DNA of 64,000 nt from Hydrogenophaga sp. PAMC20947 (GTDB lineage Bacteria > Pseudomonadota > Gammaproteobacteria > Burkholderiales > Burkholderiaceae_C): NCBI RefSeq assembly GCF_004795855.1, contig NZ_CP039252.1, positions 3,782,001-3,846,000 of the forward strand, read 5' to 3'. This document shows positions 17,211 through 33,599 of this stretch, in pieces. The position numbers and the translations under genes were made by a program. Each line of letters starts with the position of its first letter. The first letter of the stretch is position 1. Under the pieces are notes generated by a model. That model was not told the origin of the DNA and did no database searches. It saw nothing but the letters and a program-made list of their open reading frames with translations.

Positions 17211-17221
17211 GACATAATGTC
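17211..17221 (+). promoter_or_regulatory. Candidate methyltransferase autoregulatory operator
   Basis: GACATAATGTC is an almost perfect palindrome, and a related GGACA lies just upstream (17200-17204) in GGGGGACATATTGGC. It precedes the favoured methyltransferase start at 17247. M.EcoRII and M.SsoII are known to repress their own genes through their N-terminal helix-turn-helix and a GGACA/TGTCC dyad. The rest of the 324-base gap 16893-17216 holds no gene. Confidence 0.45.
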
Positions 17222-17246
17222 TCACTTTTATCCCGCCGGTGATTTT

Positions 17247-18509
17247 ATGACTCTCACAACGTTCGACCAACAAGCCGCGATCGATTACATCAACGCCGCG
17301 AAACTTGCCCGGCCTACCTTGGATTTGGCTGAGCACTTCGGTATCGCGAAACGCACTCTGCAACGCTGGAAAAGCGGAGAGGTCGCTCCACCGGCGCATG
17401 TTGTGGGCGAGCTACAGCGCCTTCTGCAATTCGGCGCTGTCAAAAAGCCAGTTGGTGACTTCAAGTTCATTGACCTTTTTGCCGGCATCGGAGGAATCCG
17501 AAATGCTTTTGAGGCGATTGGTGGCGAGTGCGTGTTCACGAGCGAGTGGGATGGCTACGCTCAGAAGACCTACCTCGAAAACTTTTCAGATGGACACCCG
17601 CTGAATGGTGACATCACCCAGATCGAAGCGCAGGACATCCCGGACCATGATGTTCTGTTAGGTGGATTTCCCTGCCAGCCATTTTCTATCGCTGGTGTAT
17701 CCAAGAAGAATGCGCTTGGTCGCGCTCACGGTTTTAAAGACGCAACGCAGGGCACTTTGTTCTTCGATGTGGCCCGCATCATCAATGAAAAAAGACCAAA
17801 GGCGTTTCTCCTGGAAAACGTGAAGAATCTTCACTCGCACGACAAGGGCCGAACTTTTGAAGTGATCCTGCGCACGTTGCGCGAAGACCTTGGCTATCAG
17901 GTTTTCTACAAAGTTATCGACGGCGCCCATTTCGTTCCTCAGCACAGAGAGCGGATCATCATCGTCGGCTTTCGTGACCCAGTGATCTTTGACTGGAGCA
18001 TGGTTGACCTCCCAGAAAAAGGCGAGCACCGCCTTGAGGAAATTCTTCACAAAACCAAAGGGGAGCCCAAGCTGGAGCACGATGGCGATCGTTTCTACGA
18101 TCACGCCAATCGCAAAGTGCTGGACAAGTACACGCTTACAGACAACCTTTGGCTTTACCTTCAAAACTACAAGAAGAAGCACCAGGCTGCAGGGAATGGG
18201 TTTGGCTTTGGATTGGTGACGCCCGACAGCGTCACACGCACTCTGTCAGCTAGGTACTACAAAGACGGTTCAGAAATTTTGGTAAGCCAAGGAGGCAATA
18301 AGAACCCCCGCCGCCTGACGCCGCGTGAGTGCGCTCGTTTGATGGGCTTTCCAGACTCATTCAAGATTCCGGTTTCCGATACGCGGGCCTATAAGCAGTT
18401 TGGCAACTCTGTTGTCGTGCCGGTGATGGTGGCAGTGGCTCGCGTCATGCAGCCATTGATCGCAGATGCCACGCTGACACAGCCCTCCGACATCCTTCAA
18501 CCTGCGTGA
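17247..18509 (+). CDS. DNA (cytosine-5) methyltransferase, M.EcoRII/Dcm type
   Basis: C5-methyltransferase of 420 residues from the ATG at 17247; an in-frame ATG at 17217 has no ribosome-binding site and lies within a palindrome. Residues ~15-50 form a helix-turn-helix ([19 protein letters not shown]). The catalytic domain has [10 protein letters not shown] (motif I), [12 protein letters not shown] with the nucleophilic cysteine (IV), LLENVKNL (VI), [11 protein letters not shown] (VIII) and [10 protein letters not shown] (X). The following EcoRII-type endonuclease indicates CCWGG as the target. It lacks the longer N-terminus of M.EcoRII (477 residues). The gene leads an operon with a small ORF, vsr and the endonuclease. 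Confidence 0.92.
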
Positions 18510-18526
18510 TTGCTCAAGGAGGCGCT

Positions 18527-18814
18527 ATGAAAGATCAACGTCGTATTCCCGAAATCCCCGGAAAACCCAGCCATGCGCTGGATCGCTGGTTTCGACAGCT
18601 CTACGTCGCCGGGCTGCTCTTCAACCCTGACGATCGCCCCGAAGACATCGTTGTTATTGGGACGGGTGAATCGTTGTTCACAGAGCGAGAGAGTCTGGTT
18701 CTGACGGAGTCGATAGACCGACTTTTCGAATGCCACGGTGAAAAGGTGTATGACGTGGCGCTCAAATACTTCTACAAGGCAGTGGGCATCACTCCCGATT
18801 ACTCAATCGCGTGA
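18527..18814 (+). CDS. Small protein between methyltransferase and Vsr, unknown function
   Basis: Ninety-five-residue protein with a perfect AAGGAGG site before the ATG at 18527. I do not recognise the family. It starts with a polar PGKPSHALDRWFRQLYVAGLLF helix, then a VVIGTGESLFTERESLVLTESIDRLFECHG stretch. Its stop overlaps the GTG start of vsr (GTGA), so it is translated together with vsr within the restriction-modification operon. It could be a controller or an accessory to the methyltransferase, but it lacks an obvious helix-turn-helix. Confidence 0.7.
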   Translation: MKDQRRIPEIPGKPSHALDRWFRQLYVAGLLFNPDDRPEDIVVIGTGESLFTERESLVLTESIDRLFECHGEKVYDVALKYFYKAVGITPDYSIA

Positions 18815-19275
18815 CGGATGTCGTAGACCCGGCGACAAGAAGCCGGATGATGTCCGGCATCCGGAGCAAGAACACCAAGCCAGAATTACTTGTGCGAAGC
18901 CTGCTTCATCGGCGGGGCTTCCGTTTTCGTTTGCACAGGAAAGATTTGCCCGGTAAGCCTGATATTGTCTTGCCTCGATACAAGGCGGTTATCTTTGTTC
19001 ATGGGTGCTTCTGGCATGGCCATGAATGCAACTTTTTTCATCTGCCGGCCACAAGAACTGGTTTCTGGATGGAAAAAATCCAAAACAATCGCGAAAGAGA
19101 TCTTCGCCAAATTGAAAACCTTCGAACGATGGGCTGGCGAACTCTTGTTGTTTGGGAGTGTGCCACACGGAAAGGCACACTGTTATCACCTAGCGACTTA
19201 GGTGACTGTATAGAGGTATGGCTAAAAATGCGGATTGATTCGATTCAAATTGATGCAGAAGGCGAGCATGGTTAA
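18811..19275 (+). CDS. vsr: Very-short-patch repair endonuclease
   Basis: Vsr endonuclease of 154 residues, which nicks next to the T of T:G mismatches left by deamination of 5-methylcytosine in CCWGG contexts. Family motifs are present: RSRMMSGIRSKNTKPEL near the start, RLHRKDLPGKPDIVLPRYKAVIFVHGCFWHGHEC with the catalytic Asp and His, and a late FWMEKIQNNRERD. GTG start overlaps the previous stop. Its place in the operon matches the need to repair mutation hotspots created by the neighbouring methyltransferase. Confidence 0.93.
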   Translation: MTDVVDPATRSRMMSGIRSKNTKPELLVRSLLHRRGFRFRLHRKDLPGKPDIVLPRYKAVIFVHGCFWHGHECNFFHLPATRTGFWMEKIQNNRERDLRQIENLRTMGWRTLVVWECATRKGTLLSPSDLGDCIEVWLKMRIDSIQIDAEGEHG

Positions 19276-20563
19276 AGATAAGGTTAGTGACTATGTAGAA
19301 GGCGTTGCGGCGAAGTACTTGAGCGCAGTCGATGCAGAAGCAAAGAAATCCAATCAGCATGAAATAGGTGGACTGGTCAGGGCAGGCTTTTCGCCGTATT
19401 TAGGAGTTGGGCCAGACGATTTTAGATATAAAGTGCGACAGGTATATATATCGGATGATCAAGAGGAACCAATAATTTGTGATAGTTATGTCACGTGGTA
19501 TGACACTCGTAGAGACGATGAATCCAGAGGTCCAGAGTATCGCCTCTATTACTACGACAGTCCTGTAACGGAAATGATGTCAGGAGGAGACTTTTTCCTT
19601 CTTGCGAAGCTAAAAAACGAGATTTCTAGTCAAACTGAGGGTGTAGTGCCAGCAGGTATAAAGCTACGTCCAGGCTCCTTTTTGATGGTCTTTGCAAGAC
19701 CCGGGAGTAGCGCAGAGTCGCAACTGAAGGCAATGTTCGGATTGTCGTCCGTTAGTGGTGCATTCAGTTCAGGAAAAACTGATGCAGTTGACTTGATTTT
19801 GCCATTGCGACTAATGCTCGAGAGTATCGGTGTAGAAGTCGGTAGCGGGCTTGGGCAGGAAGGCGAGTGGCTTCAAAGGCTTGTCGATGCGTTCGGTGGG
19901 GTGGCTTTTCCGAAAACTTCGATTTTTTCTGAGTTTGCTAGAAATAGCCTTGGCGCTGAAGTTTCAGCCATTGATACGCCGGATGCTACATTAATGGCAT
20001 GGATGCAGCGGGAAGAGAGTTTATTTAGGCTCTATGAACGATACCTAGTGAGAGAGAGATTAATTTTAGGATTTTCTGGGGATGTTGATTCATTTATCGA
20101 TTTTTCTTTAAGCGTGCAAAACCGCCGAAAGTCTCGAGTAGGTCATGCTTTTGAGGGTCATTTGAATAAGTTGTTTGTTGAGAACGGCTTGAATTTTGAG
20201 CAGGGTCGTGGAAAAGGAAGGGTTACGGAAAATAATTCCCGTCCTGACTTCATGTTTCCATCTTTTGGCGCCTATCAAGATCTTTTTTATCCTGTTTCTG
20301 GTTTGTTGATGCTTGGAGCAAAAACATCATGTAAAGATCGCTGGCGACAGGTTCTGTCGGAGGCTAATAGGATTCCATCGAAGCACTTGATAACCCTTGA
20401 GCCAGCAATTAGCGGAGCTCAACTTGAGGAAATGGCTGCTCATCTGTTGCAATTGGTCGTTCCCTCTTCTATACAGGATACATACACTCTTGGTCAGAGG
20501 GGAAAGCTTTTGAATGTCAGTGAGTTTATTGATCTGGCCCGGAAGACTCAGATGCAAAATTGA
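19268..20563 (+). CDS. EcoRII-type type IIE restriction endonuclease
   Basis: Endonuclease of 431 residues from the ATG at 19268, which overlaps vsr by eight bases and has AGAAGG before it. The C-terminal catalytic domain (about 270-410) carries SRPDFMFPSFGAYQDLF and MLGAKTSCKDRWRQVLSEA, matching the PD...xK signature of EcoRII including its two essential lysines and tyrosine. The N-terminal ~200 residues match the effector DNA-binding domain that inhibits cleavage until a second CCWGG site binds. The gene is notably AT-richer than its neighbours, a sign of transfer. EcoRII itself has 404 residues. Confidence 0.92.
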   Translation: MVKDKVSDYVEGVAAKYLSAVDAEAKKSNQHEIGGLVRAGFSPYLGVGPDDFRYKVRQVYISDDQEEPIICDSYVTWYDTRRDDESRGPEYRLYYYDSPVTEMMSGGDFFLLAKLKNEISSQTEGVVPAGIKLRPGSFLMVFARPGSSAESQLKAMFGLSSVSGAFSSGKTDAVDLILPLRLMLESIGVEVGSGLGQEGEWLQRLVDAFGGVAFPKTSIFSEFARNSLGAEVSAIDTPDATLMAWMQREESLFRLYERYLVRERLILGFSGDVDSFIDFSLSVQNRRKSRVGHAFEGHLNKLFVENGLNFEQGRGKGRVTENNSRPDFMFPSFGAYQDLFYPVSGLLMLGAKTSCKDRWRQVLSEANRIPSKHLITLEPAISGAQLEEMAAHLLQLVVPSSIQDTYTLGQRGKLLNVSEFIDLARKTQMQN

Positions 20564-20591
20564 TAGAATTATTGGATAACGGTTCGCAATC

Positions 20592-20629
20592 AAAAAAGCC
20601 CCGAATTCGAAGAACTTCGGGGCTTTTTT
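20592..20629. terminator. Bidirectional intrinsic terminator
   Basis: AAAAAAGCCCCGAA pairs with TTCGGGGCTTTTTT, with a short loop, and has an A-run before and a T-run after. It lies between the convergent EcoRII and MDR genes and should work for both. Confidence 0.9.
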
Positions 20630-20683
20630 CTATCCATTAGAACAGGCATCAATCGTGGTTCTGATTGAATCCGACGTCTCCGG

Positions 20684-21835
20684 TTAGTCCTGCATGCCTT
20701 TGCTCGGATCAATCAACACCTTCGCCCCAGTCGCCCGCTGCCCATAAACCCCGACCGCCTCAAGCGTCAACGCCTCAGCCAGCGACACGGTGCGTGAGTA
20801 GTGGCTGGCGAAGGTGGTTTTGAGTTCGGCGGCGACGCGCTGGCGCAGTTTCTGCGCATCGGCCTGGCCGATCTTTTGCATGAATGGGGTCAGCAGCCAG
20901 CCGCCCATGCCCCAGGCCATACCGAAACTGCGGTTAAATTCGGTGGGTGCTGGGTCCAGCATGCCGTAGAGGTACACCTGCTTGTGCACGGCCGAGCCGT
21001 AGCGGCTGTATTCCTTGGCGTTGCGGTTGATGGCCACTTCCATGCAGGTCAGGATTTGGCCGGGCAGTTTTCCGCCGCCGATGGCGTCGAAGGCGATGGT
21101 GGCGCCGGTCTCGGCCAGGGCGTCGGTCAGCTCGGCGAGGAAGTTGGGTGAATCGGTGCTGCAAACATGCTGGGCGCCCATGTCGCGCAGCAGCTTCGCC
21201 TGTTCGGGCTTGCGCACAATGTTCACCAGCTGCACACCGTCTTTCAAACAGATGCGGTTGAGCATCTGCCCCAGGTTAGACGCGGCGGCGGTGTGGACCA
21301 AAGCCGTGTGGCCCTCGCGCCTCATGCTCTCGACCATGCTCAAGGCGGTCAGTGGGTTGACGAAACACGAGGCGCCTTCGGCAGGGGTGGTGCCTTCGGG
21401 CAGCAGCAGGCATTGTTCGGCCGCCATGATGCGGTGTTGTGCGTACATCGCGCCGCCGATCAGTGCGACCGTTTTGCCCAGCAGCGCCTGCGCTGCGGCA
21501 GAGCTTCCCGCCTTGATCACCACGCCGGCGCCTTCATTGCCCACGGGCATCGACTCGTCGGCGCGGGCGGCCATGGCTTTGATCAGTTTCTCGGGCACTT
21601 GCGCGTTCAACACGGGGCGATCTGCCGTGCCCGACACCTTGGCGGTGCTCATATCGGCCGCGCCAAACAACAGGGCAAGGTCAGAGGGGTTGATGGGGGT
21701 GGCTTCGATGCGCACCAGCACCTCGTTGGCCGCGGGCTCGGGAATCTGCACCTCTTGCAGCGAGACTTCGAGCTCGCCATTGGCTCGAATCAGTGAGCGC
21801 AGTTGCAGGCTCGTGTGGGCGGTATCGGTACTCAT
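20684..21835 (-). CDS. Zinc-type MDR alcohol dehydrogenase/quinone reductase-like protein
   Basis: Medium-chain dehydrogenase/reductase of 383 residues. The N-terminal catalytic domain has INPSDLALLFG and VGNEGAGVVIKAG, and the Rossmann part shows a modified nucleotide-binding region (ALVHTAAASNLGQML) in place of the usual GGVG motif. The structural zinc cysteines of alcohol dehydrogenase are absent, so it belongs with the quinone-oxidoreductase/enoyl reductase branch, which uses NADPH. GAGGAAA precedes the ATG. A 16-base palindrome 50 bases upstream suggests local regulation. The substrate is unknown. Confidence 0.8.
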   Translation of the reverse strand: MSTDTAHTSLQLRSLIRANGELEVSLQEVQIPEPAANEVLVRIEATPINPSDLALLFGAADMSTAKVSGTADRPVLNAQVPEKLIKAMAARADESMPVGNEGAGVVIKAGSSAAAQALLGKTVALIGGAMYAQHRIMAAEQCLLLPEGTTPAEGASCFVNPLTALSMVESMRREGHTALVHTAAASNLGQMLNRICLKDGVQLVNIVRKPEQAKLLRDMGAQHVCSTDSPNFLAELTDALAETGATIAFDAIGGGKLPGQILTCMEVAINRNAKEYSRYGSAVHKQVYLYGMLDPAPTEFNRSFGMAWGMGGWLLTPFMQKIGQADAQKLRQRVAAELKTTFASHYSRTVSLAEALTLEAVGVYGQRATGAKVLIDPSKGMQD

Positions 21836-21884
21836 GGGGTTTCCTCGTCAACGGTGGAGTGATGTGTGTGGTGGGTATTCAATC

Positions 21885-21900
21885 GATCAATCGATTGATC
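21885..21900. promoter_or_regulatory. 16-bp palindrome, probable operator
   Basis: GATCAATCGATTGATC is a perfect palindrome, with extra half-similar ATCAATC on one side. It lies 50 bases before the MDR start codon, as expected for a TetR-type operator, but no regulator gene is adjacent. Confidence 0.5.
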
Positions 21901-22117
21901 AATCAACCATCCAGTCTAGTGGTGCAGGAGCCGCTGCGCGTGTTGCTCGCGCGTCACCTCTTGGCCGGTAGGGGTGTCCGGGGTGCTGTTGTGGATGGCT
22001 GGCGAATGCCTTGCCCTCAGCGCAACGACCCATCGCCGCTTTCGGTGAAATGGCAGCATTCCAAATGCATGAAGCGATGACGCCACCGAAGTGGGCAGTA
22101 GCCGCAAAGGAAAATCG

Positions 22118-22151
22118 AAAAAAAACCCCATGAGTTTTTCAACTGATGGGG
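22118..22151 (-). terminator. Original gyrB terminator, now displaced by the transposon
   Basis: Read on the minus strand, CCCCAT and ATGGGG form the stem, AGTT/AACT extend it around a GAAA loop, and eight T residues follow. This is a classic intrinsic terminator with no minus-strand gene directly in front of it. Removing the element 22188-53651 with one AAATC copy places it about 40 bases after the gyrB stop codon, also on the minus strand. Confidence 0.8.
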
Positions 22152-22182
22152 CTCGATTTTTCGGCTTATGGGGCCGCCTAAA

Positions 22183-22187
22183 AAATC
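22183..22187. repeat. Target-site duplication, left copy (AAATC)
   Basis: AAATC stands directly before the first base of the left transposon end (TGTCAGATG...). The same five bases directly follow the right end at 53652-53656. A five-base duplication is the length produced by Tn7-like and Tn5053-like transposases. Confidence 0.85.
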
Positions 22188-22324
22188 TGTCAGATGTCAG
22201 AGAACATGAAAAGTCATGTGTTGATTTCAAAGGGTTTTTTCATTAACTTTGTCATTCGCCTTTTCTGGCGTGACACAGATAGTGAAAAAATCCTGCATTC
22301 GTGCCAGTGAAAGTGCAAAAATCC
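22188..22324. repeat. Left transposon end with TnsB-type sites
   Basis: The terminal repeat (from 22188) reads TGTCAGATGTCAGAGAAC then ATGAAAA. Further related sites are an inverted copy at 22231-22254 (reverse strand TGACAAAGTTAATGAAAAAA), a direct copy at 22271-22293 (CAGATAGTGAAAAAATCC) and a weaker copy at 22301-22324 (CCAGTGAAAGTGCAAAAATC). The shared core is close to TAGTGAAAAA. Confidence 0.75.
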
Positions 22325-23154
22325 GCGCGGCTTACGTGGCAGATGACCCAAGTTTTGAGATCAGTGTGCCGAGTCCTATTTTTGCCTTCTTGGTGAGAGG
22401 GTAGTCCAAAGGCTAGAACTCACGTGTTTCGATTATGCCGGGCGGGAGTCTGTATCCAAACATCACCCTTCCTTCGCCCTACATATTGCCCGTGCACCCG
22501 AAGGTGCGGAGGAGCGCGACTCATTGATGGCCAACCTTCAACTTGGCCCGCCCGTGCGTCGGTGTCCGAGTGCCACTTTCATGTGGTCAAAACACGAACC
22601 CCATGTGGTCAGAACACGACGCCCTGTGTCAAAACACGAGGGTTCTGGTCGCTCGCACGTGTGCCAGATGACTCAAGGATTGAAGACTCAACGCCTGCCA
22701 CCTCCATGGGCGGTCCGCTGTAAGTTGAAATTTTTCTACAGAAGTGGGTGAAATCCATAGAGTGTTCGCCAGTCACAAAACAATTTGACGAGAAGCTAAA
22801 AAAGAGGCAACCTGTCCGAGCTATCGCTTGATATTCGAATATCTGAACTTCTACCGAAAAGTCGCTAGTCAGATATCCATGGTCACTGCCTGACTTAACC
22901 CATCCGGCATTGACGAAACTTGAAGCGGTTCACATGTCATCGGGTAAAAGAACAAGTCAACTTACTACGAAAAATGGGGGAGGCATGCAAGTCAAAACTC
23001 TGCCAAAAGTATCTCCGACGCCGGTGCACTCTATATTTTTTGGGGGGGCCAATGCAGTCAGCACGGCTCGATTTTGCTAGGGCGCCACTTCGGCAGGACA
23101 GCAGAAATTTGGATGTCGCTACTTCCAAGATGATCTACTTCTGAGGTCTGAGTT
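22325..23154. other. Left-end non-coding region of the transposon
   Basis: About 830 bases without a credible gene. It holds the three tandem repeats at 22580-22642. A GAGGT ribosome-binding site sits at 23143-23147 just before the TTG start of the ATPase gene. Short open frames here lack family resemblance and good starts. Confidence 0.55.
22580..22642. repeat. Three tandem ~22-bp repeats in the left end region
   Basis: The unit CATGTGGTCAAAACACGA occurs at 22580-22601, again as CATGTGGTCAGAACACGA at 22602-22623, and in a shortened form CTGTGTCAAAACACGA from 22624. The three copies follow directly on each other with a 22-base period. No ORF in the area is convincing, so they look like protein-binding iterons. 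Confidence 0.6.
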
Positions 23155-24657
23155 TTGGCCCGATCTCTCCAAACTGTTGTCTTATGGCCCAAGCATGCCG
23201 ATAAGCCTCCTCGGGTACTCAAATTTGAGGCGGATAAGGTCAATTACATCTGCTCACCAGCGCGGACCGGCAAGTCTTACCTCTGGCCCGTTATAGACTT
23301 TGTGCTGGGTGCAAGAGGGCGGCGCCCACCACAAGATCCGCTTGCAAGCACAGTCGACTGGTATCAAATGGAGTTCGACGAATCCTTGGTGGACGGGGCC
23401 GGAGATCTCGAATTGCTTGCGAGACATCATCTGGGAAGAAGTGGAGCAATGCGTGCCAAGCGGCATTCAAGCACAGCGCGTTCTAAACCGACCAATAATA
23501 TAAATATGGAACGGTACATTGAAGAACTTGCAGTGCCACTAACAACTCTTCCCATCACTCCATTTGGTCGGTTGTCTACACGCGACTTAGTACTTCTCAA
23601 TCACCTACCTCAGCATGCTTTAGGTGATCCCTATTCATTTGTAGCGACATCTGGCAAATCATTCTCACGACTGAAATTGGGCTACTTCATGGAGTCATTG
23701 CTAGGCGGGCCAACCTCTAATAATGTTCTTCATGCCACCTATGCGAACCGGCATCGTACTAAAGAAAGGGGCTTGCGCGAGGCCTGGCGCCCCTTCCACC
23801 AGGAGTTGGTGCACTTGGTGGGAAAGGCGTCTGAGGTCGGCGCACTTGACGGGGATATTAACTACCTTGAGAACCTCCCTTTAGAAGTAGGTCTCCGTCA
23901 GTTAGCTGTCGCTCGTAAACGTCTAAGCTTGACACAAATTAGGGAAACGGGAATTGAGAGAAAATATTCGGGAGGTTCTAAGGTTGCTGCTTATGAACTC
24001 GGTGTACTGGCGGGAAGGATTTCGGAGTTTCTTCGTGTCGCAGGAGGAATGCTCGAAGAAATCAGGCGCTATGACTCACAGTTGAATCTCGAGCTCGGTG
24101 CTCATGCAAAAACACTACTAAGTTCGACAATCGAAGGATTCGCTAAGTCTACAACCGACGAGATTCAACGTTGTGCTGAATTGATGGGGCTGGATGGTGG
24201 GGGTGTGCCGGTGAAAATTGACGCGAACACGATGAGTTTATATTTCGAAGGTCCCAGTGGAAAGAGGGAGCCACTGATTGAAATTGGAGGGCAGCAAAAT
24301 TACGTTGGATACAACATTGCTGCGATGATTGCTTTGCACGTAACGCTGCGTAGATGCGGACTCGACGTTTTACATTCTTTTCTTGTGATCGACCAGCCGA
24401 GTCAGGCATTTTATGAAAGAAGCAATGACTCGTCTGGTTATTGCATATCACAAGAAGCCCAAAATCGACTCCAAAAATTGTATGCTGCTCTAGATAGTAT
24501 TAGTAGTTCCACTCCAGAAATTCCAACTTTGATTATCCTAGAGCGATCGCCCCCAAACAACTTGAAGAAGCTGCCTAACAGTTGCTTAGTTCCAGGCTGG
24601 TGTACGGATGCCGACGGCCTGCTACCTTCAGGCTGGATCAAGGAAAAAAGAACATGA
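23155..24657 (+). CDS. DUF3732-type ABC-like ATPase of a putative conflict system
   Basis: Protein of 500 residues starting at TTG (23155), supported by GAGGT seven bases before it and by a stop two codons upstream. The N-terminus has the DUF3732-like KVNYICSPARTGKSYLWPVIDFVLG with a P-loop whose first glycine is changed (SPARTGKS). The C-terminus has EIGGQQNYVGYNIAAMIALH and FLVIDQPSQAFYE, matching the signature/Walker B end of DUF3732 proteins. The central coiled region is short, since family members often exceed 600 residues. Such SMC-like ATPases act as sensors or switches in multi-component defence loci. The stop overlaps the start of the bL17-like gene (ATGA). The operon is AT-richer than its surroundings. 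Confidence 0.75.
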   Translation: MARSLQTVVLWPKHADKPPRVLKFEADKVNYICSPARTGKSYLWPVIDFVLGARGRRPPQDPLASTVDWYQMEFDESLVDGAGDLELLARHHLGRSGAMRAKRHSSTARSKPTNNINMERYIEELAVPLTTLPITPFGRLSTRDLVLLNHLPQHALGDPYSFVATSGKSFSRLKLGYFMESLLGGPTSNNVLHATYANRHRTKERGLREAWRPFHQELVHLVGKASEVGALDGDINYLENLPLEVGLRQLAVARKRLSLTQIRETGIERKYSGGSKVAAYELGVLAGRISEFLRVAGGMLEEIRRYDSQLNLELGAHAKTLLSSTIEGFAKSTTDEIQRCAELMGLDGGGVPVKIDANTMSLYFEGPSGKREPLIEIGGQQNYVGYNIAAMIALHVTLRRCGLDVLHSFLVIDQPSQAFYERSNDSSGYCISQEAQNRLQKLYAALDSISSSTPEIPTLIILERSPPNNLKKLPNSCLVPGWCTDADGLLPSGWIKEKRT

Positions 24658-25601
24658 GACATCGAAAGCGAAGAAAATATCCTGCTTCGTCAGCCTCCCA
24701 TGCAATCGCATTGCTGCAAAATCAAGCTGCCGAAGTGTTACTGCATGGACAGATTATTACGACTACGGTGAAAGCGAAATGTTTGCGTCCATATTTAGAG
24801 CGCCTCATAACAAAGGCGATTCGCGCAAACGCATCGGAATCGGATGGAGCGAGAATTGCTGTTATTCGACATATCTTCCGTCATCTCAGAAATCGACAGG
24901 CACTTGAAATTCTTATCCATGTGGTTTCTCGAGTTTTTGCCGATCGTCCAGGTGGATACACGCGCCTTTTAAAGTGCGGCTTCCGCGATGGAGACGGAGC
25001 AGAAATGTCTGTCTTTCAGCTGGTAATGGATCAAAGTCCGTTTGATCTAATTGAGAAATCAGATGAGTGGGATAAGTGTTTGGCGGCCAAGGAGCGATAC
25101 GCGCTTATCAAGACTCACTGCCTTAATAATCTCATTCCGAGCCTGTCGGCTATCAGGCTTTGGGCAACCTATAGGTTCCCCAAATTCAAGCTCAGTGTGG
25201 AGCACGACACTTCAATGGGCGTTTGTTCGATTTTGGAGATCCCTGACGCAAGCCATTGGAATATAGAGGACTGGCCTGTCTTGCAAGGCGAGCGCGTACC
25301 TTTGCAGCTTACTTTGAGGTTCTTTGGGGACTCGAGATACCTGCGAGACGATCTGGTAGAAATGAGAGTCACGTGCGAACGAAGTCCTTTTGGCATATTT
25401 TCCAAAGAACGCAATGGAACTGCGCTGACATTTGTATTAAATTCAGAAATGCTCGGCGAAGCGAAAATTATTGTGGTGAAGCATTCCTTTATGAAGACAA
25501 GGCCGATTGCATTTGTAGCTACGCTTTTGAGTCCGTATACGACGTTGCGATCGGCTAGATCTATCAGTACTGTTTTCGGTGAAAACAGCGTCATTAGTTA
25601 A
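24654..25601 (+). CDS. Ribosomal protein bL17-like domain fused to an unknown C-terminal domain
   Basis: Protein of 315 residues whose first ~125 residues align along their full length with ribosomal protein bL17. It begins MRHRKRRKY like MRHRKSGRQ of E. coli, keeps SSASH, QIITTTVKAKCLRP (EIIKTTLPKAKELR), the LITKA block, and ends with FADRPGGYTRLLKCGFRDGD, nearly identical to bL17's [20 protein letters not shown]. The middle is longer and divergent. Residues ~130-315 are a beta-rich, unrecognised domain. Housekeeping rplQ follows rpoA and is ~130 residues long, so this is not it. It is coupled to the DUF3732 ATPase (ATGA overlap) and followed after 18 bases by a CHAT protease. I infer a ribosome- or rRNA-binding sensor, or a decoy. 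Confidence 0.85.
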   Translation: MRHRKRRKYPASSASHAIALLQNQAAEVLLHGQIITTTVKAKCLRPYLERLITKAIRANASESDGARIAVIRHIFRHLRNRQALEILIHVVSRVFADRPGGYTRLLKCGFRDGDGAEMSVFQLVMDQSPFDLIEKSDEWDKCLAAKERYALIKTHCLNNLIPSLSAIRLWATYRFPKFKLSVEHDTSMGVCSILEIPDASHWNIEDWPVLQGERVPLQLTLRFFGDSRYLRDDLVEMRVTCERSPFGIFSKERNGTALTFVLNSEMLGEAKIIVVKHSFMKTRPIAFVATLLSPYTTLRSARSISTVFGENSVIS

Positions 25602-25619
25602 GTTGAGAAAAATTGAGGG

Positions 25620-26774
25620 ATGATAGGTTTGACCAAGAATAATAAAACAAGGAAAATGGGGCCAAAATTTCGAGCAAGGCCGACTGCGCTGGATTTGCGC
25701 TTTATCGGCGTTCCGGGAAATCCAGACAGCGTCGAGATCCATGTCGAGTCAACTCCAAGGGGATTGCGATCTCATCCCATTGTCATTGGTAAGTCTGCGT
25801 TGCGGGCCATGAGGAAGAGTCTTATTGATGGAATTGAAGCCTATACTAGGGACAAAACCTTCGGCAAGCTTAAAGCCCTCGCTGAGCTTGGCTATGAGAC
25901 CTTCAACATTTTGTCTTCAACACACGGTCCAATACACCGAGAGCGGTGGCGCAAGCTTTTCGAAGCACCAAACGATGTTCGGCACTCGGTGATCAGGGTA
26001 AAATTTGATGGGGATTTTTCATTCCCAGTTGGTCTGCTTTGCAGTTCGAAACCGACCACTGACCAATACAAGGAGTTGGTGAACAAATTCATTGGTGCTC
26101 GGTCTGTTGTAATCAATTCTCTGGGCATGATTCATGATCGCGAAGATGATCGGAATCACGTAAGTGTAAAGCGTCCTTGTTGGGTAGCTCATGCTATTGA
26201 CGTGGATGTGCCTGGAGCAGGGAAGGAGTCGAAGTTCCTTGGAGCTCTCGAGGGTCTCCGAACCTCTCGATGCAAGAGCAAGGCGGAGTTAGTTGAGGCT
26301 TGGAATAGTCGAAAGACCGGCATTATTCATTTCACCAGTCATCACCGTTTTGATGTCGACTCAGGGCAGTACGTTTTGACACTATCGGGGGGAGAGAAAT
26401 TTGGCGCGCTGTCAGATAGAGTGCAAATCAATCGCGCAAATGACGGCCTTCCATTTCTATTCTTGAACGGCTGCAATACTGGTCAAGTTCTCGCTGGCTT
26501 CCCAGACACCTTCGCGAGTTCTCTAAGCCCTGCTTTTTCTTCTGGCATTCTTACCACTCTACATAGTGTTGGGGGTGTTGACGCTGCACAGTTTGCAAGG
26601 ACCTATTATCAGAAGTGGCTTGCAACTGATTTCGCTATCGATGCACTTGCGCAAACGAAGCATGAGTATGTTTTTAATCGCCGAGACTTTTCGGCCATTA
26701 CATATGAATTCTGGGCAATGCCAGAGGTTCTCACCCTTTTTGAATGGAGCGATGATGAAGAAGAAATCAGCTAG
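25620..26774 (+). CDS. CHAT-domain caspase-like protease
   Basis: Protein of 384 residues. The C-terminal half is a CHAT peptidase: the catalytic histidine is in IIHFTSHHRFD (about residue 235-245) and the catalytic cysteine in FLFLNGCNTGQ (about 284), followed by FASSLSPAFSSGILTTLHSVGGVDAAQFARTYYQ, the usual late CHAT segment in pieces. The N-terminal ~170 residues are a beta-rich region that may contact partners. CHAT proteases in conflict systems cut a partner or host protein on activation. The start at 25620 is provisional; 25656 has a better AAGGAA site. The gene overlaps the next by about 20 bases. Confidence 0.82.
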   Translation: MIGLTKNNKTRKMGPKFRARPTALDLRFIGVPGNPDSVEIHVESTPRGLRSHPIVIGKSALRAMRKSLIDGIEAYTRDKTFGKLKALAELGYETFNILSSTHGPIHRERWRKLFEAPNDVRHSVIRVKFDGDFSFPVGLLCSSKPTTDQYKELVNKFIGARSVVINSLGMIHDREDDRNHVSVKRPCWVAHAIDVDVPGAGKESKFLGALEGLRTSRCKSKAELVEAWNSRKTGIIHFTSHHRFDVDSGQYVLTLSGGEKFGALSDRVQINRANDGLPFLFLNGCNTGQVLAGFPDTFASSLSPAFSSGILTTLHSVGGVDAAQFARTYYQKWLATDFAIDALAQTKHEYVFNRRDFSAITYEFWAMPEVLTLFEWSDDEEEIS

Positions 26775-27126
26775 CAAGATGTCTGACGACCTCGGGTCGG
26801 GAATTCGCATTGCAGTGGCGCGGCACTATGGAAGCAACCCTGCAGAATATGAGAGGCGCGGAGTATTGGACAGTGTCAGTAGCCGGGTCAACGACGTAGC
26901 CATGGTGACGTCAGGAAAACTTGCAGAGAATTTGAAATCGTTCTCTGAGCAGTTTGGAAGTGCTTTAGCTGCTGTCGGAGAAGGAGCCGGTGCATACGAA
27001 ATAGACGAAATAAAGGTTATTGTCGAACTTGGGGTAGAGGGTGAAGTAACTCTGCTCGGTTCGGGAGTGTCGACATCAGGCAAGGCCGGAGTCGAAATGA
27101 CCTTTAGACGGAAAGTCGAAAAATAG
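26755..27126 (+). CDS. Small Pepco-like protease-associated protein
   Basis: Protein of 123 residues starting at the ATG at 26755, with GGAG five bases before, inside the end of the CHAT gene. The C-terminal part (YEIDEIKVIVELGVEGEV, then LLGSGVSTSGKAGVEMTFRRK) resembles the small peptidase-co-occurring domain (Pepco/trypco type) described next to CHAT and trypsin-like proteases. The N-terminal half is helical. It probably binds the CHAT protease or its activator. It closes the four-gene operon. Confidence 0.6.
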   Translation: MKKKSASKMSDDLGSGIRIAVARHYGSNPAEYERRGVLDSVSSRVNDVAMVTSGKLAENLKSFSEQFGSALAAVGEGAGAYEIDEIKVIVELGVEGEVTLLGSGVSTSGKAGVEMTFRRKVEK

Positions 27127-27286
27127 TGTTGTTATCTGATGGACTTCATCTGATTCAATAGACATCTGTTAGGGTCGAAATGGAAAGGTAGAAACGAGTC
27201 TTGAGATTCGCCAAGGACATCGCTTTAAAGGCGGGTTTGGTAGTAGAGGCTAGCGAGGGTGCCAGCTTCACAAATCTCTCCAAGTG

Positions 27287-28321
27287 TCATGGTGTCCCTT
27301 CGACGATGGGCGCATGGTCGCGAAGAAAATCCAAGTATCCGCGCCATTGTGGCGTAGACGCGAACGTACTCTCAGCGATCAGTTCGCCGATCCGAAGCCG
27401 ATGCTGAGTCAGCTGAGGCTCGGGGGCACCCAGATCTATCTTCACATTCGCCGCCGCGCCTGCTACAGCACGTAGTGCATCGGAGATCCCGATAGCAAGT
27501 CCCTGCGAAGCAAGTGCGTCACGCGCGACGCGAGCATCGCCGATAGGTTGTATCCCTCCTTGGGCAGCTTCGCACCACTGCAGCGAAGCCGCACCCGCAG
27601 GACCGGGTGCCAACCTCTCCGGATCGATGCCTGTAACGATCCAGGGCGCGAAGCTTCGAATGTTCTCCACGACTTTGTCGGAGTCTCCGCGCAGCAAGCT
27701 CCCGTGACCAACTACCCCGAGCGTGGAGTGTTGCGCGTTGCTGAGTCGATAGACGTAGCCTTGCGGTCCGGCGGCAATGGCGAAGCCATCCAGGTCTCGT
27801 CCAGCCTTCGCAACCTGCGTAAACGTCCGGCAAACTAGGGGGATCTCCGGACGCACGATGTAGCGTGCGGACAAAGCGGCACGCCCGGACGAATCCAAAA
27901 TGAGAGAGCCGCTATCAATGGCACCGGCGATTTCGGCCGGCACGGAACTTCCAACCGCCCGGATGCAGACACCAGACCGTGTTGCAAGGCCAAGAAGTGC
28001 CAATTCGAGTGCCGGTCGTGAGACATGTGCCGAGGGCGGAGCCTCGTCGGCGTTCACCTCCAGGGAGCGCCACTGCGTTAGCCGGCGTCCATGCGTCCGG
28101 TCGACGCCAAGCAGGCGAGGGTGCAGGCCGAATTCGACGAGCAGCGCGATCATCTGCGCGGGAATCGCCTCAAGCCAACAGGGGTCCTGCACTACGGGCA
28201 AGCGATTGGTGAGAATTTCGACCGGCAAGTCGAGCTGCCTGGCACGCAGCGCCGCCAACAGACCTACCGGACCCGCCCCGATCACGACGAGCGGCGGTCG
28301 CACGCCATGCACTTTGGACAT
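27287..28321 (-). CDS. FAD-dependent oxidoreductase of the LodA-like cluster (LodB-like)
   Basis: Flavoprotein of 344 residues. VVIGAGPVGLLAALRARQ at residues ~11-28 is the FAD Rossmann motif, GIQPIGDARVARDALASQGLAIGISDA is the late GD motif region in pieces. LodB-type flavoproteins and the monooxygenase QhpG are needed to form the cysteine tryptophylquinone of their partner oxidase. It is the last gene in a leftward operon, 17 bases after the ferritin-like LodA gene, so a cofactor-maturation role is likely but inferred. The sequence is short for the usual ~370-residue LodB. Confidence 0.7.
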   Translation of the reverse strand: MSKVHGVRPPLVVIGAGPVGLLAALRARQLDLPVEILTNRLPVVQDPCWLEAIPAQMIALLVEFGLHPRLLGVDRTHGRRLTQWRSLEVNADEAPPSAHVSRPALELALLGLATRSGVCIRAVGSSVPAEIAGAIDSGSLILDSSGRAALSARYIVRPEIPLVCRTFTQVAKAGRDLDGFAIAAGPQGYVYRLSNAQHSTLGVVGHGSLLRGDSDKVVENIRSFAPWIVTGIDPERLAPGPAGAASLQWCEAAQGGIQPIGDARVARDALASQGLAIGISDALRAVAGAAANVKIDLGAPEPQLTQHRLRIGELIAESTFASTPQWRGYLDFLRDHAPIVEGTP

Positions 28322-28338
28322 TGCCGCGGGTCGACTGG

Positions 28339-30135
28339 CTACAGACTGGCGGGCGGCTCGATCAGTGCGAACTCCGCGCCTGCGGGCGTGTCGAACGACA
28401 CCAGAAAACCTTGCGCTGCGACCGCCTCAGCGAGCGCGTTGATGCCTCCCGGCCCCACCATGCTCGTGCGTGCCGCATTAATCTCTGCCGCGCCGGGAAA
28501 TATTCCCTTTGTGTAGCCTTCCCTCAACTTGACAAGCATGGCGGCGTACGCCGCCTGTAGCAGGCCGTTCGCGGTATTTCCAGCGGGAGGACGAGCCGGG
28601 GCGACAGAACGAAGGTATTCGGACTCGTCATGATTGGCGAGCCACTCCTTCATGTCGCGGAATGTTTGGAAGTGGTCTTCGCCCTCGGCGATGATGGATC
28701 GCACGGCTTCCCGCCACTCGTCGGTCGCGGCCTGCGCTACGTCCGCGGGCGGCGTGACTAGCGTTGCGAGAATGCGCGTGTACAGGCCGTCGACTCCAGC
28801 CGACGGTGCTTCCACATTGATGAAGCTGTCGACCGCTTCGCGCGTAGCGGGCCGCATTTGAACGTCCCTCAGTTGCCCCGGAAGGCCCGGAACCCGGGAT
28901 GCAACTCGCAGTGCGGGCTGGAATGTTCCGGCGGGAGACAGCCCGCGGATGATGTCGTTCACGGACCTGGCGTGCCGCATCTCGCCAGTCGCGATTCGCA
29001 TCAGCTCGGCATGGCTGGCCCGGATATCGTCGCGCAGATCGGCGCTGCCCGCGACGGTCGGGTCGTCCGGGGATTTCAGCGAATACGCCGCGCAGAGATA
29101 TTCAAGAGCGACGGCTAGCTCAACCCCGGCCGCGTACCGCAAATGTTCGAGGAGGACCTGCAGGTCGGGCAGGGGCGCCGACTGTGGCGACATGCCCGGC
29201 GTGTAGGGCGCGACGATCTCGCGTCGCCCGACCACGAAGTGCAGTTCTTGCCACCGGCTGTTGATCTCGTAATGCCGCAGCTCGGTCCGAACTGCACTCG
29301 CGGCCGTAGCCGCTGGAGGAGCGACGGCATCGATTGCGCGGTCCCTGCGCTCCCACGGCACAGCGCGCTCCCAGGTTTGGTCAGTTGCGCCCGTGCTGGG
29401 TAGAACCGGCCGTGCGATGTCCGGGTGATTCGAAGCCCAATAGAAGCAGCCGCAATCCCGAAAGTCGTGGGTCCATGGGCTGCAAAGCGACTGAGTAAGT
29501 TCCCCCGGCAGAAAAGCCGCCGAAAGCGCACCGTTGTCGTCCAAGTAGCGGGCGCGAGGTGCCGTGAGCGTGGATTGCCCGGTTGAGCCTTCACGCCTGA
29601 ACGTCAAAGTCACGCTTGTCCCTTCGGTAAGCAACCGGACAGCGGTCCAGGCGTCCGAAGGGCGCCGAGAGGCGCCTGTGCTGGTGTCCGTGAGATCGCC
29701 GACGACCTCGGCTTCCCCGTTCATTTCGGGCTGTTGGAGCGTCAAAACCAGCGGGCCCAACAATCCGAAGGTCCCGGAGATTGTTGCAATGAGAGCGAGG
29801 CGGTCGGAGGAAATATCGCCGGCGAGGGCTTGGTAGACAGTTGCATCCGCAGCGGAGACACTGCCGTCCGCTCGCGCCCTGTCGACGCCGTCCAGGTCGA
29901 CATTAGCCAAGACGAGATGGTTGCCTATGGACTCCACTTCCATGAACGGGAAGAATCGGCGCTCCAAATTTCGCAAGTCGCATTCCAGGCCGGGGAAGCA
30001 GTTGCCGACGCCGGACTCTAGGCGCGTCGCGACGGGATTTCCGGCCACGACATCGGTCGTTCGGGTTCCATCTCCGAACCGGCGAATCGCGGCAACGTTT
30101 CGGGCGACGATTTTGGCTGAGTACGAACCGCTCAT
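28339..30135 (-). CDS. LodA-like CTQ segment fused to a VioB-type ferritin-like domain
   Basis: Protein of 598 residues (start 30135, GGAGG before it). The first ~290 residues look like the central part of LodA/GoxA oxidases: GNCFPGLECDLRNLERRFFP, then PGELTQSLCSPWTHDF followed by RDCGCFYWASNHPD, the place where Cys and Trp form the quinone cofactor in that family. From about residue 330 it changes to a helical ferritin-like domain as in VioB (LRYAAGVELAVALEYLCAAYS, a later GEMRHARSVNDIIRGL), with Glu/His metal ligands. Usual LodA proteins have no ferritin part. The start overlaps the radical SAM stop (ATGA). Substrate is unknown. Confidence 0.65.
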   Translation of the reverse strand: MSGSYSAKIVARNVAAIRRFGDGTRTTDVVAGNPVATRLESGVGNCFPGLECDLRNLERRFFPFMEVESIGNHLVLANVDLDGVDRARADGSVSAADATVYQALAGDISSDRLALIATISGTFGLLGPLVLTLQQPEMNGEAEVVGDLTDTSTGASRRPSDAWTAVRLLTEGTSVTLTFRREGSTGQSTLTAPRARYLDDNGALSAAFLPGELTQSLCSPWTHDFRDCGCFYWASNHPDIARPVLPSTGATDQTWERAVPWERRDRAIDAVAPPAATAASAVRTELRHYEINSRWQELHFVVGRREIVAPYTPGMSPQSAPLPDLQVLLEHLRYAAGVELAVALEYLCAAYSLKSPDDPTVAGSADLRDDIRASHAELMRIATGEMRHARSVNDIIRGLSPAGTFQPALRVASRVPGLPGQLRDVQMRPATREAVDSFINVEAPSAGVDGLYTRILATLVTPPADVAQAATDEWREAVRSIIAEGEDHFQTFRDMKEWLANHDESEYLRSVAPARPPAGNTANGLLQAAYAAMLVKLREGYTKGIFPGAAEINAARTSMVGPGGINALAEAVAAQGFLVSFDTPAGAEFALIEPPASL

Positions 30136-31454
30136 GAAGGCCTCCCCGAGGTGAAAAATGCGGGCTGGTCCGCAAGAAGTTCGCAGTAAGCTGCCAAGCA
30201 GAATTCGAGCCAACCACGAATGAAGTCGCAGCTGGCGATCGTTCTGCTGCGCGCTTCCTGGTGGCAGCTGCCGGAGCACAGGTAGCGGGCCCAGCAGGTG
30301 TTGCAAGGCGCCTGGGCGTGGACGTGCCGTTGGATCAGGAATGCCCGGCGGCGCTTCTGGTCCATGCCGTTCGAGTCGCCAAGCGCGAAGCTCTCATCCC
30401 CGATTGCCCGGTGGCATGCATACCAGCGGCCATTGGCGGCTACTGAGAAGTAGCCGCCGCCTGCGCCGCATGGGTAGGGAGAACTCGCGCCCGCATGGAT
30501 TTGCTTGAGCGCCACGGCAAGGTTGGTGAGACGAATCGAAGCGCCATTGCGGGCGCGCTCGAGTTCATGGCGGGAGACGGCGATGAGCTCAGCGAGGTAC
30601 GATGGCCAGTCGGATTCGCCAACGTTCGAGTCGTCGGCCGCAGTGCGCAGCGGCGCGACACCGGCCTCGCGAAATCCAAGTTCCCATACGGCATCGAGCC
30701 GGTTGGACAGATCGAATCTGCCACCGCTGATCGTCATGCGCGCTGCCACCTGGGCCCGACCCGGAGCGGCGAGCAGCGGGGCGATGTGTTCGGCCAGGCG
30801 GTTGAAGCTACCCCGACCTCGTTTGTCGGGGCGCTGCGCATCCTGGACGTCCGCACCGCCATCGATGCTGACAGTCACCGCGAATCGATGTGCCTGAAGA
30901 AGGTCGATGTCAGAGGGAGTAAGGGTCGTGCCGTTGGTTGTGATGGAAAACCGCACATCAAAACCTCGCTCCCCGCCAGCGCGCGCCGCATGGGCAACCA
31001 CCGAGTGCACCAGCGTGCGGTTCAGAAGCGGCTCGCCGCCAAGGAAGCCAATGGTCACAGGAGCAGCTCGATCGGCATCCAAGAACAATCGGTCGACTGC
31101 CGCGATTGCGGTCTCGGGCGTCATGCGATTGACCTGCTTGCCGCCGAAGCCACCGCGGTCCGCGTAGCAGTAGCTGCAGGCCAGGTTGCAGTTGGAGCTA
31201 ACGTTGAGCGACAGACTTTGCGGTGGCGGCTCGACCACAAGGTCCAGCGCGGCTTCGCCGGATCCCGTTTCACCCAGCATACCGGCGAGGCGATGCAACT
31301 CTGGTGGGTTGGAATCGAGTTCGATGGCGGCTTCCCGCGGCAAGTCGAATAAGCGCGAGTGCTGTAGCACGAGCAGATGTTCGCCTTGAGTAGAGCTGAA
31401 CCGTTTGTAGAGCGGCGCAGATGCCGAAGCGTAAAGGCGATGAATGACTTGCAT
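30132..31454 (-). CDS. Radical SAM/SPASM peptide-maturase-like enzyme
   Basis: Protein of 440 residues. The radical SAM CxxxCxxC is in NCNLACSYCYADRGG; FLGGEPLLN and ITTNGTTLT follow as expected. A SPASM region carries YPCGAGGGYFSV, ANGRWYACHRAIGD and the CNTCWARYLCSGSCHQEA cluster, for two auxiliary iron-sulfur centres, which is the layout of enzymes that crosslink or oxidise peptides and proteins (QhpD, sactionine and anaerobic sulfatase maturases). It is coupled on both sides: it starts on the LodA-like stop and its stop overlaps the next start. A GTG one codon earlier (31457) is an alternative start. The likely substrate is the LodA-like protein. Confidence 0.85.
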   Translation of the reverse strand: MQVIHRLYASASAPLYKRFSSTQGEHLLVLQHSRLFDLPREAAIELDSNPPELHRLAGMLGETGSGEAALDLVVEPPPQSLSLNVSSNCNLACSYCYADRGGFGGKQVNRMTPETAIAAVDRLFLDADRAAPVTIGFLGGEPLLNRTLVHSVVAHAARAGGERGFDVRFSITTNGTTLTPSDIDLLQAHRFAVTVSIDGGADVQDAQRPDKRGRGSFNRLAEHIAPLLAAPGRAQVAARMTISGGRFDLSNRLDAVWELGFREAGVAPLRTAADDSNVGESDWPSYLAELIAVSRHELERARNGASIRLTNLAVALKQIHAGASSPYPCGAGGGYFSVAANGRWYACHRAIGDESFALGDSNGMDQKRRRAFLIQRHVHAQAPCNTCWARYLCSGSCHQEARSRTIASCDFIRGWLEFCLAAYCELLADQPAFFTSGRPS

Positions 31455-33109
31455 CACCGCAACTCCGCCGCGTCGATCCGGGACAGCACGGCCGATCGGC
31501 GGCTCGCGGCGGCGGGCGAAAGCGCCTGGGCTTTCGAGGGTACCGCTGCCAAGCCAGCGCCTGCGGGCGCTGCGAGCGCTTGCTGCTGAACTTCATCGAC
31601 CCAGCGCATCAGCAGATCGTACTGCCACGCCGACAGGGTGAGGGGCATAGCATTCGACTGCCGCATGAACGGCGGCATGCGCATCGAACTAGAGTCGGCG
31701 CTTTCGAATGCTTCGGTTTCGAAGGGCGCCCGCACGATTTCGCGCACCCTGTTGCGTCCGGCAAGCGCATCGATCGCCACCAGCGCAAGCAGATTCTGGA
31801 TGTCCGAAAGCGCGCGATGCCGCATCCGCGCGTGCTGGCTGAGTGGCAAAGGGTTGTTGACTGTGGCCCCCTCGAGCTGAAAGACCTGTGAGCGAAGCGC
31901 GTCATGACCCCCCATGGCGCTCGCGGGATCGGGTCGCGCGCCTTGGTCGAGGTCGGTGGCTTCAATCTTCGACGAGGGTAGAACCGCTGCACGCTGGCTG
32001 CGGAAGTGGTCGACGTTGAAGAGCGAGACCGTCTCATAGATGCGCTCGAACAAATCCTCGACCCATGCGCTGAGGGCCGCACCGGTCAGGTCTACGTTGC
32101 GCTTAGCAGCTGCCCCGTCTCTGTCGTTCAATTCATCGGCGATGGAGAGGAATGGCCGGTGATTTGGCGCAAAGTCTGGCGGCGCGACAAATGCGACTGC
32201 ACGCGCAGCGAGCGAGAGCCCTGCCGAAACGTTCAACGAAACGTCGAAGTGCACTTCGCATGTGTCGTCCACGACGCCGAGGGACGCTCCTCTGGGTGCG
32301 TTCTGATCGACCGCGTCGTAAGTATCACCGGGAACGACGAGGTTTCCTGTCTGCGCGCCGCGCCAACCAGCTTGCGGGTTGAGGTACGCATTGGCGGCCG
32401 GCACCGCGGGTGCGGGACGGCCGAGCGCGGGTTGTGCACTGGCGGCTTCCGGGGGTCCATAGAACGAGCCGCGAGCGGGCGTGTATCGAAACCGAATCGT
32501 ATCCACGCGAACCACCGCGGACCACGGCCGCCCCGGAGGTTGCGGCGTACTCCGCAACATCTGCACGGTGCCAAGGGGAATCGGGCGTCCGGGCGGGATC
32601 ATGGGAACAGGCGTGCCGGGCGGGCTCGTTCCTTCAATTGTTTTCACCGTTGAATCATTCCCTGCTATCACGAGCGGCTGCCAGTTGCCGAAGGCATGGG
32701 ACTCGTCGCCCGAGCGGCGCGCCGCCTTGCGGTTGCGCGCCGTGACGCTAAGACGCAGTGAATTGATCGACAGACCGTCAGAAGCGAGCAATTCATTGGT
32801 CAGGGGAGCTTCGGTCCATGTTCCGGCATCGCTGCCCGCCTCGCCCAAGCGAGCCCATATCTCGAAGAACGGCGCCACGGGTCGAATGAGATCACCATCC
32901 CGAAAGGCAATCGCTTGGGGAGGGAACGGCGCCACGGATCCGTCGGGCTGCACTGCCAGTGTCCAACTCGGCGCTATATCTGTCTCGCCGTCGAAACGTG
33001 GGTTTTGGGTGTCGACCCAATCGTAGGCATGCATCGGTGTCGTGCTGCCGCCGAGACGAGCGACGGCGAATGCTGGCGTGATGAACAAGCCCTGGATGGA
33101 AATTGCCAT
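31454..33109 (-). CDS. LodA-like protein lacking the quinone motif
   Basis: Protein of 551 residues starting at 33109, with AAGGAG just before it (a longer frame to 33172 is not supported). The N-terminus (LFITPAFAVARLGGS, then IAFRDGDLIRPVAPFFEIWAR) matches the start of LodA/GoxA oxidases, and the C-terminus (MRMPPFMRQSNAMPLTLSAWQYDLLMRWVDE, in pieces) matches their final helix pair. The Cys/Trp quinone region is not here; only one cysteine is present in the mature chain. The gene therefore looks like one half of a split LodA system whose CTQ-like part sits in the protein at 28339-30135. No signal peptide is seen. First gene of the operon. Confidence 0.6.
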   Translation of the reverse strand: MAISIQGLFITPAFAVARLGGSTTPMHAYDWVDTQNPRFDGETDIAPSWTLAVQPDGSVAPFPPQAIAFRDGDLIRPVAPFFEIWARLGEAGSDAGTWTEAPLTNELLASDGLSINSLRLSVTARNRKAARRSGDESHAFGNWQPLVIAGNDSTVKTIEGTSPPGTPVPMIPPGRPIPLGTVQMLRSTPQPPGRPWSAVVRVDTIRFRYTPARGSFYGPPEAASAQPALGRPAPAVPAANAYLNPQAGWRGAQTGNLVVPGDTYDAVDQNAPRGASLGVVDDTCEVHFDVSLNVSAGLSLAARAVAFVAPPDFAPNHRPFLSIADELNDRDGAAAKRNVDLTGAALSAWVEDLFERIYETVSLFNVDHFRSQRAAVLPSSKIEATDLDQGARPDPASAMGGHDALRSQVFQLEGATVNNPLPLSQHARMRHRALSDIQNLLALVAIDALAGRNRVREIVRAPFETEAFESADSSSMRMPPFMRQSNAMPLTLSAWQYDLLMRWVDEVQQQALAAPAGAGLAAVPSKAQALSPAAASRRSAVLSRIDAAELR

Positions 33110-33599
33110 AGCATCTCCTTGAAAGAGACGAGTCAAATTTCTTATTGCTTCAGCGAACATCGCTGAGCACAAACATCTTGCCTATAGATCCGGCCCTTTG
33201 AAGTCATTAATCAACGCAGCCCTCTGCCCCGGCAGTTTGCATTGAAAAGTTCAGGCATCACAGGGCCGAAGAAATAAGAACGCCAAATTAGCTAAGAACC
33301 GATCGCCCTCAAAATAACGTTATCACGAAATTGCCTCTGGAAACAACTCTCTTCAACCTGAATTTGGGAATCGCGAGCGCACCCCCCATTTGCCACCGAA
33401 GTTCGCTTCGCCCTTCCAGTTGGCAAGCTCTACGACGGTGGAGATGGACTTCCAGCAACTTCGAACCACAAGTTGAAGATTGGCTAGGGAAGTGGATGAA
33501 GTCCAGATTCCGGAACTTCGTATGTTAGCCAGGGGACCCAGAGTTGGGATTCAAGGCAAGTTGCCCTGACTACCAAGAAGGCCTCGTGTGCGAAGAGCG
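33110..33599. other. Intergenic region upstream of the LodA-like operon
   Basis: I see no convincing gene in these 490 bases. The AAGGAG ribosome-binding site of the LodA-like gene is at 33115-33120, and its promoter must lie upstream of that. The sequence is AT-richer around 33240-33340, which could hold the promoter. Confidence 0.4.

Follow-up and report, generated by a model that had tools for sequence, protein, structure and literature searches.

Four consecutive genes in a 64,000-nucleotide stretch of Hydrogenophaga sp. PAMC20947 (contig NZ_CP039252.1, positions 3,782,001 to 3,846,000; the whole stretch is called the window) encode a compact ABC ATPase, a protein in which a homologue of ribosomal protein bL17 is fused to a second domain (bL17-X), a CHAT-domain protein and a Pepco-domain protein. 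We read them, with a probability of roughly 45%, as a conflict operon, probably an anti-phage one, in which the bL17 domain serves as the address module to the large ribosomal subunit or 23S ribosomal RNA (rRNA). A bL17 adaptor in a conflict system derived from Lamassu would be highly unusual. The genes and domains are as follows.

23155..24657, + strand: compact LmuB-like (DUF3732) ABC ATPase gene, 500 amino acids (aa), TTG start
24654..25601, + strand: bL17-X fusion protein gene, 315 aa, with relatives P0002-P0006
24654..25025, + strand: bL17 domain, residues 1-124 of bL17-X
25029..25598, + strand: X domain, residues 126-315, short helices (~137-171) and then a beta-sandwich (~179-308)
25620..26774, + strand: CHAT-domain (caspase-like) protein gene, 384 aa, Pfam CHAT 28.2 bits
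26752..27126, + strand: Pepco-domain protein gene, 124 aa, start at 26752 or 26755, Pfam Pepco 52.6 bits

None of the four frames is interrupted, and neighbouring genes overlap or lie close together: the start of bL17-X overlaps the stop of the ATPase gene (ATGA), 18 bases separate the bL17-X stop from the CHAT start, and the Pepco start falls inside the 3' end of the CHAT gene. The tight operon of a DUF3732 ATPase, CHAT and Pepco proposed in a preliminary description, made from the DNA letters alone, is therefore borne out. No DNA match to the four-gene operon was found in E. coli genomes.

A bL17 homologue beside an intact rplQ

The same description had regarded the protein as a bL17 homologue fused to a second domain, and the family models agree, with 82.5 bits for PF01196 (curated cut-off 27) and 86.1 bits for TIGR00059 (curated cut-off 70.05). 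The bL17 domain is complete, has the bL17 fold and carries the N-terminal MRHRK. PF01196 matches the host genome twice, with 134 bits at C1:3167357-3167647 and 85.4 bits at bL17-X, and the 134-bit match adjoins the C-terminal domain of rpoA on the same strand (C1:3167860-3168036), which is the usual rpoA-rplQ pair. bL17-X neither adjoins rpoA nor is the sole bL17 of the genome, and it is, judged by sequence, a bL17 homologue without being an rplQ orthologue. Replacement of rplQ by bL17-X is ruled out because the rpoA-linked rplQ is intact elsewhere in the genome; of the two findings that the preliminary description named as refuting it, lack of a significant bL17 match and loss of the normal rplQ, neither applies. 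The two host proteins share 38.7% identity across 124 residues. In a tree of 30 bL17 domains, which leaves the position of the long fused branch within bacteria unplaced, the five fused domains group together as a single clade with support 100/99. The stem of this clade measures 0.84 changes per column, and the clade stands apart from the rplQ of Burkholderiales, the host's included. A recent duplication of the host rplQ is ruled out by the 39% identity and the long separate stem.

A whole-protein search of ~5.8 billion proteins gave 150 hits among 1477 candidates, and among the matches listed, the best 120 of the 150, at least five proteins extend clearly past bL17 proper. Both domains are found in P0002 (51% identity), P0003 (48%), P0004 (38%) and P0006 (39%, N-terminus missing), while P0005 (46%) is a 209-aa fragment on an 818-base contig, beginning near the end of the bL17 domain. 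These relatives are recorded under the sources lgn or ena, on contigs whose lengths run from 818 to 15314 bases, and are presumably metagenomic. By these alignments bL17-X is a real family of fused proteins. P0003 and a relative of the compact ATPase, P0123, come from the same source, each on a contig of 15314 bases, and therefore very likely lie on one contig; no such pairing with the ATPase was seen among the other bL17-X relatives. When the C-terminal part alone was used as the protein query, it recovered only itself among 206 candidates, which reflects the word-based pre-filter and not absence, because the whole-protein query found five relatives.

Full-length bL17-X appears to be very rare in genomes. 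In the order, 249 of the 300 genomes searched give a match at E<=1e-12, and besides the own genome the matches listed end by residue 174; among 378 genomes of the phylum searched with the family profile at E<=1e-25, 130 match and, the own genome aside, none extends past residue 167. These genome samples overlap, and some collections may omit records near the window. Scans with the C-terminal alignment and one peptide pattern gave 0 relatives in 35 pattern hits for genome_contigs and 0 in 6 for viral_contigs, and a scan of viral_contigs with the single bL17-X protein gave 0 in 2 hits. In tblastn searches, 56 plasmid records and 14 phage records match, none over at least 80% of the query. Seven of the 11 plasmid match places inspected are annotated as rplQ, and four lie in records without annotation there.

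Conservation was compared between five fused proteins and 121 canonical bL17 proteins (114 search hits, skewed toward long and Bacteroidota proteins by the length window of the search, and 7 from loci). The canonical set has 52 columns conserved at 85% or more, three of which lie in the tail past the domain, where most fused proteins have no residue. Of the remaining 49, 41 show the canonical residue in 60% or more of the fused proteins and 8 fall below this share. The motifs MRH, TT, AK, GGYTR and GD are retained together with K107, G109 and R111; the exceptions include L28, which is mostly V or I, and D125, located at the edge of the domain, and A19 is retained in 2/4 and M20 in 2/5 fused proteins. 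Pairwise identity within the fused family (P0005 excluded) is 53-69% for the bL17 domain and 21-39% for the C-terminal part, so conservation of the fused protein is concentrated in its bL17 domain. The C-terminal part of P0005, a protein with only 20 bL17 residues, resembles that of P0002 at 90% and that of P0001 at 42%.

The ATPase, CHAT and Pepco proteins

The ATPase carries Walker A RTGKS, signature IGGQQNYVGYN and Walker B VIDQPSQ, scores 60.1 bits with Pfam DUF3732 and has LmuB as its best PADLOC model (86.6 bits); when the PDB was searched with a profile built from the six compact ATPases, three DUF3732 chains matched at E ~1e-39. The preliminary description had gone as far as DUF3732, and we add that the protein is a compact relative of LmuB. 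A protein-database search that scored the 7992 candidates sharing most words gave five compact relatives (P0122-P0126, 495-510 aa, 37-47% identical), whose lengths back the TTG start, although the database entry of the protein itself is shorter (429 aa). It is the only DUF3732 match in the host genome, searches of 399 genomes from the family and 369 from the class (E<=1e-40) found it in the own genome only, and a scan of viral_contigs gave 0 relatives in 87 hits.

In an alignment of the six compact ATPases with nine ordinary DUF3732 ATPases of full length, a coiled-coil stretch and a CPxC hook are present in 9/9 of the latter and missing from 6/6 of the former, and the compact proteins had GGQQN (in one case GGQAN) where the ordinary ones have GSGAN, GSAAN or GSGEN. 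The Walker B motif DQPSQ or DQPTQ was conserved in all 15. According to passages of PMC10586767, the Lamassu superfamily takes in ABC-3C, LmuB is ~650 aa long with short coiled coils and, in many but not all cases, a zinc hook, its Walker B glutamate is generally a glutamine, and proteases are among the Lamassu effectors. Twelve distant DUF3732 loci served for comparison: none of their open reading frames of at least 80 aa matches the bL17-X profiles at E<=10, and the nine middle components extracted from them are all MC3. The operon proteins gave no match to a middle component at E<=1 in the Pfam scan, with only MC3 also compared by profile, and the idea that bL17-X is a hidden MC3 is ruled out by hhalign probabilities of 0.7% and 0.2%. 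The ABC-3C effector C-terminal domain (LmuA) was not found, as the CHAT protein matches no other Pfam family. Because the ATPase is a compact LmuB relative, we read the operon as an offshoot derived from the Lamassu/ABC-3C lineage, with no middle component found, and it may work in the Lamassu manner.

The match of the CHAT protein to PF12770 exceeds the cut-off of 24 and covers positions 130-273 of the 289 in the profile. The protein contains the motifs SHH and NGCNTG, which we take to be its candidate His-Cys dyad, and against the PDB it gave a chance-level match only (E 0.18). It is the sole CHAT match in the host genome, has no plasmid match, and among 349 genomes of the order was found in its own only. 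The Pepco match is to PF24393 (cut-off 27).

Possible roles of the bL17 domain

The ATPase and bL17-X might together form the sensing unit of the system, with the CHAT protein as its effector. Through the bL17 domain the complex would be held on the large ribosomal subunit or on 23S rRNA in a nascent, damaged or exposed state, or would recognise either of them, and the beta-sandwich of the X domain would connect it with the ATPase. An infection that disturbs translation or ribosomes would switch the ATPase and release the CHAT protease, with Pepco as its partner, and the protease would then cut cellular proteins so that the infected cell is stopped. Ribosome or 23S rRNA addressing is suggested because the most constrained domain of the family is the ribosome-derived one, because the canonical partner of bL17 is a highly conserved rRNA, and because the host has no need of bL17-X as bL17. 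In addition, PMC9409020 counts bL17, in one table row, among the proteins that ring the tunnel exit, and from such a position a fused domain could monitor nascent chains. More tentatively, the system could be a Rad50/LmuB-type switch that lacks the DNA-sensing arms and the middle component, and that a captured ribosomal protein has redirected to the ribosome, so that surveillance of ribosomes or 23S rRNA is coupled to the caspase-like CHAT protease.

Several observations weigh against the addressing of ribosomes by this operon. R12 (119/121 canonical proteins) and R17 (120/121) are each replaced in 4/4 fused members covering the position, K56 (113/121) is replaced in 5/5, and E122 (117/117 of those having a residue there) is Q in 5/5. 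With R12, R17 and K56 gone, the bL17 domain is probably not seated in the ribosome exactly like bL17, and its incorporation into the 50S subunit in the ordinary way is less likely; if these three residues and E122 touch rRNA, binding at the normal site would be weakened. The ligand of the domain might instead be 23S rRNA in a precursor, damaged or exposed state, or other RNA. The tether to the ribosome or 23S rRNA favoured in the preliminary description is compatible with how strongly the bL17 domain is constrained, but in the form of ordinary 50S incorporation it is disfavoured by the same three losses. The tunnel-exit proteins named in the portion of PMC5071890 consulted are uL22, uL23, uL24 and uL29, with bL17 unnamed there. 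CHAT and Pepco beside bL17-X are known from this locus only, and the view that the operon is a defence system, as it presumably is, draws on the relationship of the ATPase to known systems and on the genes nearby.

One alternative, which we consider doubtful, is that a nucleic-acid binder has been repurposed in the bL17 domain. It would do the sensing once done by the LmuB arms and the middle component, both lost here, and would recognise phage or stress RNA, or a DNA structure, but never the ribosome. The changes at the near-invariant R12, R17, K56 and E122 would fit such a new ligand; also in favour are the net charge of the bL17 part, which remains positive in the fused members (+7 to +17), and the absence of arms and hook in all the compact ATPases; however, most of the conserved bL17 residues are retained in a domain that varies far less than the rest of the protein, and a fast-evolving phage ligand would not favour such constraint. 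Another alternative is that bL17-X is a variant ribosomal protein that takes the place of bL17 in a subset of ribosomes and guides CHAT to nascent chains or ribosomal proteins, so that it would act in targeting and not in sensing. This is improbable: the complete domain with its MRHRK and the table row in PMC9409020, by which the C-terminal fusion could lie near the exit, speak for it, while the loss of R12, R17 and K56 and the list in PMC5071890 speak against it.

About as improbable is the decoy raised in the preliminary description, in which the bL17 domain mimics a host ribosomal protein attacked by phages or is a CHAT substrate whose cleavage signals activation. The mimicry extends over the full length of bL17 and the protease gene lies directly downstream, but a decoy should track the host bL17, from which this domain differs by its low identity and its old separate clade. 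We know of no phage factor directed against bL17, which also counts against a decoy. That the operon is inert or decaying cargo without present function is very improbable; full-length bL17-X, the compact ATPase and the CHAT protein were each found in none of the other genomes searched, yet the four frames, which overlap or lie close together, are all uninterrupted, and the relatives retain the same domain pair under strong constraint.

The reading in which the bL17 domain addresses the ribosome suggests that conflict machinery may target the cell's own ribosomes. If it holds, switches of the LmuB type are not confined to DNA, bacteria can monitor the integrity of ribosomes through a copied ribosomal part wired to a protease, and the translation machinery is guarded via a homologue of one of its own components. 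In the full-text literature, with most subscription papers and the main ABC-3C classification outside coverage, there was no report of a bacterial conflict operon that has a homologue of bL17 or another ribosomal protein among its dedicated components; the nearest published parallel in the text available to us is the reverse case, S29/Dap3 (PMC8195603).

Genomic surroundings and comparison with known systems

The operon is located in a defence-rich, transposon-bearing stretch, with the following neighbours.

17217-20563: restriction cluster of EcoRII-like endonuclease, C5 cytosine methylase and Vsr
27287-33172, minus strand: divergent gene set with Pfam/PADLOC matches, partly weak
34115-40902, minus strand: Tn7-like set of TnsA-like protein, Mu/rve transposase, TniB and two TniQ
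42076-49003: Avs3a and Avs3b pair (PADLOC)

Avs3a is complete (2085 aa, 2292 bits across the full model) and Avs3b scores 184.6 bits. The TniQ proteins have 412 and 623 aa, the longer one with an additional helix-turn-helix domain. The divergent set, which may be a peptide or metabolite modification cluster, comprises an oxidoreductase-like protein with Pfam matches all below cut-off, a ferritin-like protein (41.9 bits), a radical-SAM-like protein with a weak match to the viperin model (55 bits over 120 residues), and a 572-aa protein that matches no Pfam family at E<=0.001. Just upstream of the operon, at 22580-22639, there are three 12-base repeats (GTCAAAACACGA, one mismatched) spaced by 22 and 20 bases, which presumably resemble transposase binding sites at a Tn7-like end; their match count was equalled in 19/100 shuffles, and no second end was found, the 16-base repeat core having no further copy in the window at <=3 mismatches. 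A transfer RNA as attachment site is ruled out, with none in the window, and so is an RNA element in 20000-30000, where no Rfam match came up to its gathering score.

Compared with ribosomal protein bL17 (rplQ), bL17-X shares the whole domain, the fold and the 41 conserved columns, but it has a fused C-terminal domain, lies outside the rpoA operon as a second gene beside the real rplQ, and has R12, R17, K56 and E122 replaced in the fused members covering these positions. With Lamassu/ABC-3C (LmuA-LmuB-LmuC; DdmABC) the operon shares the DUF3732/LmuB-like ATPase, the DQPSQ Walker B and the defence-rich setting, whereas its ATPase is ~140-180 aa shorter, lacks coiled-coil arms and CPxC hook, and bears a GGQQN/GGQAN signature instead of the GSGAN type, and the operon has neither a middle component nor a match to the effector C-terminal domain. 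We have not filed it as Lamassu because arms and hook, middle component and effector domain are all missing. The distant DUF3732 loci run from a larger upstream protein (taken as the effector) through MC3 to the ATPase, while here the ATPase is followed by bL17-X, CHAT and Pepco where Lamassu/ABC-3C has its middle component and effector. Trypco domains are described in PMC7159879, in the portion seen, as small domains accompanying trypsin peptidases, and the terms CHAT and Pepco are absent there. As in the CHAT modules of conflict systems with partner genes of the Pepco/Trypco type, the Pepco gene follows CHAT, but the switch here is an LmuB-like ATPase together with bL17-X.
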